Shown: positions 32,439 through 35,633 of the stretch, piece after piece
How the letters are laid out: each line of letters begins with the position of its first letter
Position numbering within the stretch: position 1 is the stretch's first letter
DNA from: Deltaproteobacteria bacterium
Lineage (GTDB): Bacteria; Desulfobacterota; Binatia; Binatales; Binataceae
DNA: 64,000 bases
NCBI GenBank assembly: GCA_003135135.1
Contig: PLDK01000043.1
Location: 1 to 64,000, forward strand
Direction: 5' to 3'
Notes under the pieces: model-generated
Told to the model about the DNA's origin: nothing
Database searches by the model: none
What the model saw: the letters and a program-made list of their open reading frames with translations, nothing else
Program-made: the position numbers and the translations under genes

Positions 32439-33773
32439 ATGGCGACTTCCTACCAGGGCGAACTCAAGCGCAAAAAAGTCAGCGCCGATGAGGCGGCGGC
32501 GCAAGTCAAATCCGGCGATTGGGTCGAGTACGGATTCGGACTCGGGCAGCCGGACTTGTTCGATCGCGCGCTGGCCGGGCGAGTGCAAAAGCTCAAGCGC
32601 GTAAAGATCCGCGGATGCCTTGCGATGCGCCCGCGCGCGGCGGCCGAGGCGGATCCCGAACAACGTCATCTGGTTTACCTGTCGTGGTATTTTTCGGGGC
32701 TGGAAAGAAAGATGTACGATCGCGGCCTGGCGCATCATATACCGATGAACTTCGGCGAGGCGCCCGACACCTATCGCCGCTTGATCGACGTGGACGTCGC
32801 GGTGTTGAAGACGGCGCCGATGGACGAGCACGGATTTTTCAACTTCGGCCCGTCGGTCACCTATCACAAGGCGATCAGCGAAAAAGCCAGGACCATGATT
32901 GTCGAGACTGACGCGAGCGTGCCATACGTTTTCGGAATCGAAAACGCGGTGCATATAAATGATGTCGAGTTCGTGCTGGACGCCGGCGCATCCGCGATGC
33001 CGGAGCTGAAGAATCCCGCCGCGAGCGCGGTCGATCAGAAAGTCGCGGAGCTGATCGCGCCGGAAATCCCCAGCGGCGCGTGTATCCAGATTGGGATCGG
33101 CGCGATGCCCAACGCGGTCTGCGAGCTGCTGGCGGTGGCTCCGATCAAGGATCTCGGCGTTCACACCGAAATGTTCGTCGATTCGCTCGTGTCGCTTTAC
33201 CAGGCCGGCAAGGTGACCGGCGCCCACAAAGCGACCAACCGCTACCAGATGGCGTACACGTTCGCGGCGGGTTCGAAACGGATGTACGACTTCCTCGATC
33301 GCAACGCCGCATGCTTTGCGGGATCGGTCGATTACACCAACCTGCCGCATCGCATAATGCTCAACGACCGCGTCATCTCGATCTGCAACGCGGCGCAAAT
33401 CGATCTCACCGGACAGACGTGCTCCGAGTCGGCCGGAATTCGGCAGATAAGCGGCGCGGGAGGACAACTGCAATTCGTGCGCGGCGCGCGCGACTCGCGC
33501 GGGGGCAAGTCATTTCTATGCCTCGCCTCGACCCACGAGCGCGATGGGCGGCGCGCCAGCCGAATCGTCGCGCGAATCGACGAGTGCAACATCGTGACCA
33601 CGCCGCGCGTCGACGTGATGTACGTGGTGACCGAGTATGGGATGGTCAATCTGAAAGGCAAATCGGTTCCGGAGCGCGCACGCGCACTGATCTCGATCGC
33701 GCATCCTGATTTCCGCGAAGAGCTGGAACGCCAGGCTCGCGAGTATCGGCTGATCGCGCGCGCGGTTTTCTGA
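32439..33773 (+). CDS. Acetyl-CoA hydrolase/transferase family CoA-transferase (4-hydroxybutyrate/butyrate type)
   Basis: 444 residues of class-I CoA-transferases related to AbfT and butyryl-CoA:acetate CoA-transferase. 'GACIQIGIGAMPNAV' is the CoA-binding glycine motif, and 'LGVHTEMFVDSLVSLY' contains the catalytic Glu that forms the glutamyl-CoA intermediate. C-terminal 'VTEYGMVNLKGKSVPERARALISIAHPDFR' is family-typical. The acyl substrate is not readable. ATG at 32439, weak ribosome site. Confidence 0.88.
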   Translation: MATSYQGELKRKKVSADEAAAQVKSGDWVEYGFGLGQPDLFDRALAGRVQKLKRVKIRGCLAMRPRAAAEADPEQRHLVYLSWYFSGLERKMYDRGLAHHIPMNFGEAPDTYRRLIDVDVAVLKTAPMDEHGFFNFGPSVTYHKAISEKARTMIVETDASVPYVFGIENAVHINDVEFVLDAGASAMPELKNPAASAVDQKVAELIAPEIPSGACIQIGIGAMPNAVCELLAVAPIKDLGVHTEMFVDSLVSLYQAGKVTGAHKATNRYQMAYTFAAGSKRMYDFLDRNAACFAGSVDYTNLPHRIMLNDRVISICNAAQIDLTGQTCSESAGIRQISGAGGQLQFVRGARDSRGGKSFLCLASTHERDGRRASRIVARIDECNIVTTPRVDVMYVVTEYGMVNLKGKSVPERARALISIAHPDFREELERQAREYRLIARAVF

Positions 33774-33787
33774 TATTCGCGAACAGT

Positions 33788-34111
33788 TCAGCGCGACGGT
33801 GTTTGGTGGTCGTCTTCGTCGGCGAACTTGTACACCAGTTCGTCGGGGCGCGCGTAGCCAAGCTCGCGGCGAATGAGGCGTTCGATATAGCGGTCGTCGG
33901 AGCGAAGTTTCGCAATGCGGATTGTGAACGCGGCGTTGTCCGCCGCCAGCTGATTGCGGCGCTGCTCCAATGCGGCGCGATGGCTCTGGAGGGCGATCAG
34001 GTCGCGCGGCCCCTGCTGGCCGAGCAGGGCGCTTAATAGCAGCATCACGAGAACCCCGCCGAAGATTAGGCTGAGCCACTCGCGACGCAGTAGGAAGCTT
34101 AACCGCCTCAT
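33788..34111 (-). CDS. ftsB: FtsB/DivIC septum formation initiator
   Basis: 107 residues: one transmembrane helix (about 12-30), a coiled coil (about 40-75, 'HRAALEQRRNQLAADNAAF') and the C-terminal cap 'ERLIRRELGYARPDELVYKF', which is the conserved end of FtsB. FtsB bridges FtsL and FtsQ in the divisome. Convergent with the CoA-transferase, 14 bases apart. Confidence 0.9.
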   Translation of the reverse strand: MRRLSFLLRREWLSLIFGGVLVMLLLSALLGQQGPRDLIALQSHRAALEQRRNQLAADNAAFTIRIAKLRSDDRYIERLIRRELGYARPDELVYKFADEDDHQTPSR

Positions 34112-34257
34112 CCGACCAATCGTAATTCAAGCGCCAGCCCGACTTCAAGAGGTCAAATTTTGAACGACATTCTAACGACATTCTAAAGACCCGAAACAGA
34201 CCGGTTCGGTTGCACTCTTCCGACTTTAAAATTTCTTTATAAATCGCCGTACAGCCC

Positions 34258-34286
34258 TTGATTTTAGAATAACATGTTTCTATAAT
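34258..34286 (+). promoter_or_regulatory. Strong sigma-70-type promoter
   Basis: TTGATT (34258-34263), a 17-base spacer and a perfect TATAAT (34281-34286). Transcription would start near 34293. The leader then folds a 7-bp hairpin, GATGAGG (34298-34304) with CCTCATC (34312-34318), before the ribosome site of the next small gene. Confidence 0.8.
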
Positions 34287-34367
34287 CGGCCCGAATCGAT
34301 GAGGGATGAATCCTCATCTATAAGAAAGGGTGCTTGTCCAGCAGCAGCCTAGGAAGAGGAGGTACTT

Positions 34368-34475
34368 ATGCCAGTGAGGAAGAAGATACAGGCCAAAAAG
34401 GCCACCAAGTCCAAACCGATGCGAAAGAGCAAAATGGCTAAGAAGAAAGCAGCCAAAAAGACCAAAAAGAAGTAA
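34368..34475 (+). CDS. 35-residue lysine-rich basic protein
   Basis: Reads 35 codons from ATG to TAA with 16 Lys, 2 Arg and no acidic residue. It begins 'MPVRKKIQAKKATK' and ends 'MAKKKAAKKTKKK', like the tail of histone H1-like proteins. A perfect AGGAGG sits 6 bases before the ATG. It has its own near-consensus promoter (34258-34286), a leader hairpin and a strong terminator downstream, all evidence that it is a real, probably highly expressed gene. A nucleoid- or RNA-binding role, or an extra ribosomal peptide, is inference from charge only. Confidence 0.75.
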   Translation: MPVRKKIQAKKATKSKPMRKSKMAKKKAAKKTKKK

Positions 34476-34491
34476 CCACTTAACGAGTTTA

Positions 34492-34568
34492 CCTTCGGGC
34501 CAATACCCCGAGGGCTGGCTAAGGCTGCCAGGATTGCTGCTGGAATAAGCCGAGGCTGAAAGGCCTCG
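34492..34568 (+). ncRNA. Chain of RNA hairpins in the 3' region of the basic-protein transcript
   Basis: Three consecutive stems lie between the stop codon and the terminator: 34492-34499 with 34507-34514 (8 bp with one G-U), 34515-34519 with 34527-34531 (5 bp) and 34551-34556 with 34563-34568 (6 bp). No known RNA family is recognised. It could be a structured 3' UTR or a processed small RNA. Confidence 0.4.
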
Positions 34569-34577
34569 CAACACGGG

Positions 34578-34611
34578 AGAGCCCCCTCGAAAGAGGGGGC
34601 TCTTTCCTTTT
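34578..34611 (+). terminator. Intrinsic terminator with GAAA tetraloop
   Basis: An 11-bp perfect stem (34578-34588 with 34593-34603) closed by a GAAA tetraloop and followed by a T-rich tract (TTTCCTTTT). It ends the basic-protein transcript. Confidence 0.9.
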
Positions 34612-34802
34612 CCAGTGCTTGCTTGCGAGCGCGCGCGTTCAACATGATAGGCTTCGAGTCGGCGCGAAGTTGCGCAAGCCTTATGTCCGCGTTGGCAAAA
34701 GATTTTGACGCGATAATTGTTGGCGCGCGCGCCGCCTTTCCATCGTTCAGATTTGCGCGCCTGATGGCGGCGGCGTCGCGGGCCGCATAATTCGGCAGAC
34801 CA

Positions 34803-35633
34803 GTGGACGACGTCGAACTCGGCCGCTTCCCCGCGCAATGCGAGCGCCCCGAGCCGCTCAAGTTCGCGTGGCCCATCGTGCTGCTGCCCGAACTTTTCGC
34901 CACGCCGCGGCATCTTGCGCTGGTGTTCGGTTATCTCGCGTCGATCGGATGGGAAGTATTCGTTCCGGATTTGCGGGCGGCGTTTGGCAAAGGCTCGGCG
35001 CCTCCACTGGGGAAACTTCGCTTCAATGATTTGACCGCGCTGGCCGGCGAAGCGATCGACGGGATTGGCCGCGATGCGATCGTGGCCGGTCACGGCGTCG
35101 GGGGACTGGTCGCGCTCAAACTCAGCGAGCATCGCCGCGTGAAGGCCGCGGTCGCATACGCGCCGCCGGCGCCGGGCTTTCGCACGCCGCTGGTGGGAGG
35201 AGTCGCTAATCGGCTGGCGATGATGTGGCGGCGGCCGATCAGGCCGCCGCGCGGCAGAGTACTGTTCGAGTTGATCGCCGATTCCGATCCGTTCACTCGC
35301 GACGGTTTGATAAATGCGATGGTGCCCGACTCGGGTGCGATCGCCGCCGACGTAATGGCCGGCGCGATCGAGTTTGCGCCGCCGGACAGGGCCGCGCCGC
35401 GCCTGATCGTGGCGGGCGACTCGGACATCTTTGCGCCGCTGGCGCGGACCTCGCAGTTTGCAGAGTCGATCGGCGCGAAGCTGGCGACGATCGCCGGCCG
35501 CGGGCATTGGCTGATTGGCGGGCGCGCGCTCGAACGCGCGATGAACGAGACGCAGCGATTCCTGGTGCGCGCGCTCGGCCAGGATTTGCTGCTGCTCTAT
35601 CCCGAAGAATGGAAAAACGAGCAGGACGATTAG
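34803..35633 (+). CDS. Alpha/beta-hydrolase-fold protein lacking the nucleophile serine
   Basis: 276 residues with an alpha/beta-hydrolase layout: oxyanion-region 'IVLLPELFATPRHL', strand-nucleophile elbow 'AIVAGHGVGGLVAL', acid-loop 'IVAGDSDIFAP' and His-loop 'IAGRGHWLIGG'. At the elbow the consensus G-H-S-x-G reads G96-H97-G98-V99-G100, so the catalytic Ser is replaced by Gly, while Asp and His candidates remain. It is probably non-hydrolytic, or uses another chemistry. The start is a GTG at 34803. It precedes the enoyl-CoA hydratase by 45 bases. Confidence 0.7.
   Translation: MDDVELGRFPAQCERPEPLKFAWPIVLLPELFATPRHLALVFGYLASIGWEVFVPDLRAAFGKGSAPPLGKLRFNDLTALAGEAIDGIGRDAIVAGHGVGGLVALKLSEHRRVKAAVAYAPPAPGFRTPLVGGVANRLAMMWRRPIRPPRGRVLFELIADSDPFTRDGLINAMVPDSGAIAADVMAGAIEFAPPDRAAPRLIVAGDSDIFAPLARTSQFAESIGAKLATIAGRGHWLIGGRALERAMNETQRFLVRALGQDLLLLYPEEWKNEQDD

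Follow-up and report, generated by a model that had tools for sequence, protein, structure and literature searches.

To our knowledge, few cases of long-range pairing between the 5′ and 3′ parts of a bacterial mRNA are known, mostly those of toxins and icaR. In the Staphylococcus aureus icaR mRNA, the Shine–Dalgarno (SD) sequence of an ordinary repressor gene is blocked by the short motif UCCCCUG (PMC3868564). The aapA/IsoA and hok type I toxins are produced from compact mRNAs that encode a short basic peptide and have a conserved 5′–3′ long-distance interaction (PMC6733600). On the protein side, the histone H1-like Hc2 varies in length through lysine-rich repeats (PMC2848022), and AlgP is an H1-like, Lys/Ala-rich polycation (PMC9239181). 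Finally, the dual-function sRNA SR1/SR1P combines a short structured transcript with a small protein (PMC8501984).

Here, we describe a previously overlooked gene that encodes a tiny protein extremely rich in lysine; the gene is located beside ftsB in soil Binatia bacteria and apparently lies inside a closed mRNA. It was found in a stretch of 64,000 nucleotides, referred to below as the window. Covariation across genera supports the 5′–3′ pairing, inside which lies the gene of a non-toxin mini-protein with no match among the protein-family models searched. By analogy, the mRNA of this mini-gene would resemble the 5′–3′ paired bacterial mRNAs in the way it works, while encoding no membrane toxin.

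As in icaR, the leader and the 3′UTR of one mRNA pair with each other, as judged here by covariation only. Unlike the icaR pairing, that of the Binataceae is a covarying 14-bp helix, P1, which is positioned upstream of the SD and surrounds a gene of 35 codons; it is conserved across one bacterial family, and other families of the same class have analogous helices. The aapA and hok systems share with the mini-gene a short basic peptide encoded in an mRNA whose ends pair; however, the mini-protein is not hydrophobic, no antisense promoter was seen, the locus is fixed, and the SD is unsequestered in predicted folds. Like Hc1, Hc2, and AlgP, the mini-protein is Lys/Ala-rich, without acidic residues, and can grow in length by repeats (to 110 aa in family f6), but it is usually only 21–36 aa long, has no family-model match, and is encoded by an mRNA of special architecture. 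In contrast to SR1/SR1P, the mini-gene RNA has no known base-pairing target, and its helix is intramolecular, closing the transcript.

The Transcription Unit

The source genome is a 3.7-Mb draft in which the mini-gene is present in a single copy. Since named matches to this element include ‘Candidatus Binataceae bacterium’, the host is assigned here to the Binataceae (class Binatia, phylum Candidatus Binatota). Its transcription unit, for a 35-aa lysine-rich protein, occupies positions 34258–34611 of the window on the forward strand, to which all other features given below also belong except ftsB. The unit is flanked in the window by an alpha/beta-hydrolase gene and by the divergent ftsB (DivIC family; 33788–34111, reverse strand; Pfam DivIC, 7.5e-15).

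A consensus scan finds the sigma-70-type promoter of the original prediction at 34258–34286, with a −35 TTGATT (34258–34263), a 17-nt spacer, and a −10 TATAAT (34281–34286), as the sole promoter-like site on either strand between 33700 and 35000. Orthologues keep it as AATAACANGTTTCTATAATC, and its position places the expected transcription start at about 34293. The 7-bp leader hairpin described earlier is likewise present (P0, GATGAGG/CCTCATC, 34298–34318), and similar hairpins are seen by eye in many, but not all, orthologues. The SD, found in every orthologue, is indeed a perfect AGGAGG (34357–34362), but the spacing to the ATG is 5 nt (TACTT) and not the 6 bases previously given. The ORF, MPVRKKIQAKKATKSKPMRKSKMAKKKAAKKTKKK, extends from the ATG at 34368 to a stop codon ending at 34475, and its 35 codons specify, exactly as predicted, 18 basic residues (16 K and 2 R) and no D or E. 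The unit ends with an intrinsic terminator, P5 (34577–34609), whose 12-bp stem and GAAA loop (34577–34604) are followed by a T-rich tail; changes on both sides are seen in 5 of the 12 pairs, but the GAAA loop, which had figured in the prediction, is not conserved.

Just 5′ of the −35, at 34225–34244, is an A/T element, TTTAAAATTTCTTTATAAAT, that is UP-element-like and occupies the same site in essentially all Binataceae loci read. It lies between the promoters from which ftsB and the mini-gene are divergently transcribed and is kept throughout the Binataceae; an A-tract resembling it also occurs in families f9 and f14. Its role may be that of an UP-element.

Evidence for a Protein-Coding Gene

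A BLAST search with a 396-bp stretch matched 28 of 58 relatives, and all 28 belong to the same family. Among the loci read are 27 orthologous frames of 30–36 codons, and in each the ATG is preceded by an SD. The consensus of the peptides is MPVKKKxxxKAxKSKPKLKSxMKKKAxKKxKKK, with 7 invariant columns, and the non-Lys positions are also conserved. The pN/pS ratio is 0.31 across all orthologue pairs and about 0.1–0.4 within the genus. Of the ORF indels, 671 have a length divisible by three and 88 do not (88% in threes), as against 66 and 434 in the leader and 131 and 814 in the 3′UTR (about 13–14%). Judged by these comparisons between genomes, the mini-gene reading frame is under protein selection, and the conservation of the frame in relatives that the original prediction had anticipated is found. 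The proposal that this is a genuine gene, easy to miss and transcribed as a unit of its own, is strongly supported: the frame is conserved and under purifying selection, an SD and a terminator are present, and the place next to ftsB is kept. The view that the signals exceed chance also holds, given a z of −5.3 for the predicted fold of 34290–34611, homologous DNA in nearly half of the relatives, and conservation of the peptide, SD, promoter, and helices.

A protein profile search adds orthologues in genomes G008, G009, and G014; G034 has a DNA match on a truncated contig, and three divergent Binataceae (G020, G021, and G032) have 21- to 25-codon versions in the same position. When DNA, profile, and synteny are tallied, 39 of 41 Binataceae genomes have a comparable gene next to ftsB; the other two are G005, where ftsB was also not found, and G011, a genome of 53% completeness. 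The divergent neighbour is ftsB in nearly all loci of the family. In one locus (L025 of G028), the orthologous frame is broken by an indel and P1 is intact; this would be either a pseudogene, perhaps kept for its RNA, or an assembly error.

Of the homology search suggested earlier, the DNA part succeeded, but BLAST with the peptide alone gave no matches beyond the genus, because the peptide is short and of low complexity. The distant versions required a protein profile, a covariance model, and synteny. The RNA model R1, run on a sample of the phylum, had no match outside the Binataceae; a candidate in family f12 (G118, L115:500–1300) was rejected as a CRISPR-like array with the palindromic repeat GCTTCAATGAGGCCGAGGCCAATTGGCCTCGGAATC. 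The plasmid and phage collections searched gave no match to the mini-gene, and two pattern matches in viral_contigs proved unrelated.

The Helix Enclosing the Gene

The original prediction described a chain of hairpins but overlooked the chief long-range helix, P1. This helix joins the 5′ leader to the 3′UTR through 14 pairs, with the whole ORF inside. Its 5′ arm, GCUUGU-CCAGCAGC (34332–34345), is upstream of the SD, and its 3′ arm is GCUGCUGG-A-AUAAGC (34536–34550). In the minimum-energy fold, GCUUGUCCAGCAGC of the leader pairs with GCUGCUGGAAUAAGC past the stop codon.

Covariation in P1 was scored on a MAFFT alignment built without structure guidance. In this alignment, 91.4% of the P1 cells are paired, and both sides have changed in 8 of the 14 pairs. 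Covariation scores 0.282 versus 0.180 ± 0.014 for shuffled controls, none of which matched it in 500, and the slid maximum is 0.110; RNAalifold recovers P1 unprompted. Strict parsimony on a tree of FtsB plus CoA-transferase counts 7 double changes, each on a single branch, and 22 single changes that keep the pair; the same parsimony finds 26 branches leading to a non-standard P1 pair, some through alignment shifts. It is well supported, from comparison across genera, that the P1 helix is real, though its individual pairs are not absolute; the evidence for this predicted helix is covariation. The same comparisons show base-pair selection on P1 and on the hairpins of the 3′UTR.

3′UTR Elements and a Possible Switch

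The 3′UTR hairpins P2 (CCUUCGGG/CCCGAGGG, 34492–34514) and P4 (CGAGGC/GCCUCG, 34551–34568) covary, as the terminator does, with changes on both sides in 6 of 8 and 2 of 6 pairs, respectively. Between P2 and the 3′ arm of P1 is P3 (CUGGC-UAAGGCU-GCCAG, 34515–34531), which is a conserved motif without covariation. The 5′ arm of P3, the CUGGC directly after P2, could alternatively pair with the start region, AUGCCAG, in which the GCCAG at codons 1–3 (34370–34374) would form the pairing P6. P3 and P6 compete with each other, and neither has compensatory changes.

Pairing of the start codon region with the 3′UTR through P6 is predicted by partition function, with a pairing probability of at least 0.7 in 17 of the 23 Binataceae transcripts that have both motifs and of 0.48 in the window’s own sequence. 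GCCAG and CUGGC tend to occur together (Fisher test, 1e-4, phylogeny not controlled). Codon 2 is CCA in all 23 genes with both motifs versus 9 of the 69 other Pro codons of these ORFs; at Pro codons of the neighbouring genes in the window, CCA is used in 5 of 74. However, since CCA at codon 2 also occurs where CUGGC does not (8 of 12 Pro-starting relatives), a preference for an A-rich start is an alternative to P6.

A sequestration of the SD by the 3′UTR was considered and is not supported: in predicted folds, the SD is unpaired with a probability of 0.53 in the full-length transcript versus 0.48 when the 3′ end is truncated, and the AUG with 0.50 versus 0.43, so that there is no net loss of accessibility. 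The unchanged accessibility in these models speaks against simple occlusion. For this reason, we offer translational control by the 3′UTR as something that we infer and not as a result.

Composition of the Protein

The 27 orthologues contain 46% K, 12% A, and 0.4% D/E, with few hydrophobic residues. Searches of Pfam and NCBIfam gave no match for the versions of families f1, f6, f9, and f14, and a sequence profile search of the PDB with the mini-protein found nothing. For the isolated protein, AlphaFold models one helix, not a domain, with moderate confidence (mean pLDDT 74.5); such a helix is as expected for an isolated Lys/Ala-rich peptide and does not show that the protein is folded in the cell. 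As the protein has no family match, nucleic-acid binding is proposed from its composition, for which it would be the natural function. A histone-like or RNA-binding role fits both the 46% Lys and the 110-aa, H1-tail-like version of f6. The mini-protein gives an uncultured phylum a conserved candidate for a nucleoid or RNA-binding role.

Proposed Explanation and Alternatives

We give about an even chance to the locus being a single-gene unit for a polycationic nucleic-acid-binding mini-protein, with the mRNA closed by P1 around the coding region. The dedicated unit, probably strongly expressed, would make a very short, hydrophobic-poor, polycationic protein, presumably abundant, and this protein would bind nucleic acid; its most likely role is that of a nucleoid factor similar to a histone H1 tail or of an RNA-coating factor. 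P1, with the 5′ hairpin and the terminator, would shield both ends of the transcript and bring the 3′UTR near the initiation region. It is tempting to propose that CUGGC alternates between pairing at the start codon (P6) and the local P3, constituting a translation switch that might be sensed through binding of the mini-protein to its own RNA. The closed mRNA would then control its own stability or translation. A bolder form of this proposal, which we regard as rather improbable, is a Binatia RNA–protein module in which a re-evolving 5′–3′ helix and a transcript encoding its own polycationic ligand form a self-regulating ribonucleoprotein, giving the mRNA a role beyond coding. The locus offers a clean system for a question of RNA biology: why would an mRNA close on itself?

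One alternative is that the structured RNA acts in trans, as an sRNA or ribonucleoprotein scaffold, with the lysine-rich peptide as its partner or second product. The RNA structure is conserved at least as well as the peptide, P2, P4, and the conserved segments of the 3′UTR exceed what a terminator needs, and a basic peptide encoded within a folded RNA would naturally act as a ligand of RNA. The source genome, which is nearly complete, also lacks any match to the Rfam 6S RNA at E up to 10, and its 6S RNA may be too diverged or absent. However, the coding role is clear, given a strong SD, a start that is fixed, a terminator, and selection on the protein; the 3′UTR segments differ among lineages, unlike those of a typical trans-acting RNA, and no targets are known; we consider a trans-acting RNA unlikely.

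The mini-gene could also be an ordinary gene for a small basic protein, whose mRNA ends pair for protection from exonucleases only, without regulation. P1, the 5′ hairpin, and the terminator would guard both ends, and the SD accessibility left unchanged by the 3′UTR agrees with this simpler view, but protection has no need of P2, the conserved CUGGC, or the constant CCA at codon 2. We hold pure protection to be a minor possibility.

It is very improbable that the unit produces the mRNA of a type I toxin like hok or aapA. The topology, small basic peptide, and paired mRNA ends with a 5′–3′ long-distance interaction are shared (PMC6733600, for aapA); however, 46% K with few hydrophobic residues makes a membrane span unlikely, the consensus scan finds no promoter-like site on the minus strand of 33700–35000, the gene is in single copy at a fixed chromosomal site adjoining ftsB, and the SD is free in the predicted fold. 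An even slighter chance attaches to a Lys-codon leader peptide that attenuates the downstream gene: 16 of 35 codons are for Lys, and hairpins and a terminator stand ahead of a gene, but this gene is variable, which already contradicts attenuation, and non-Lys positions are conserved as well. A housekeeping RNA, tmRNA-like or of another kind, whose frame would be a by-product is suggested by the closed ends around an internal frame but is hardly credible, as the genome has its true tmRNA at another site (C38, 197 bits), ARAGORN detects no tmRNA in the window, the frame has its own SD and ATG, and the unit has no Rfam match at the gathering score (best sub-threshold, BjrC68, 21.9 of 39 bits). 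The tests run led us to reject the unit as a tmRNA, a 6S RNA, an attenuator, or a type I toxin.

Analogous Units across Binatia

The preferred single-gene unit with a closed mRNA has counterparts beyond the close relatives. In the divergent Binataceae loci of G020, G021, and G032 (L146–L148), the P1 arms are written in other letters and pair equally well, as GGCGCUAGCGC does with GCGCUAGCGCC in L148. In f9 and f6, a lysine-rich ORF with an SD, divergent to ftsB, lies between arms of the UCUCGCCUGAGA/UCUCAGGCGAGA type. A similar unit in f14 is 3.7 kb from ftsB, and its arms, by eye, match at 14 of 15 positions. In two loci of the f6 genus g59 (L173 and L174), the protein is expanded to 110 aa without D or E, and the arm type is kept. 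Since the enclosed lysine-rich ORFs span 21 to 110 codons, the spacing between the arms varies widely.

Single-locus helices were rated by a strict helix score, as ViennaRNA duplexfold with free loops was uninformative. Because the scores in f6 and f14 are modest and mostly not significant alone, the case for the helices of f6, f9, and f14 rests on recurrence at comparable positions. This comparison shows that the gene and its predicted closed architecture recur beside ftsB in the Binataceae and two more Binatia families, with peptides in f6, f9, and f14 that may be either homologous or merely analogous to that of the Binataceae. It would appear that the closed fold is actively preserved by evolution even where its letters have wholly changed.

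Synteny around the unit had been proposed to include both neighbours. FtsB is constant, but the hydrolase side is not: the downstream genes among the loci include alpha/beta hydrolase, FAD-type oxidoreductase-like frames, IMPDH-like, and opposite-strand genes. In G020, G021, and G032, a ZIP-type transporter-like frame lies downstream on the opposite strand, where the window has the hydrolase. The repeats of the 110-aa protein of g59 are of the AKKKTAKKR/TGARKKKKAPARKKKK type.
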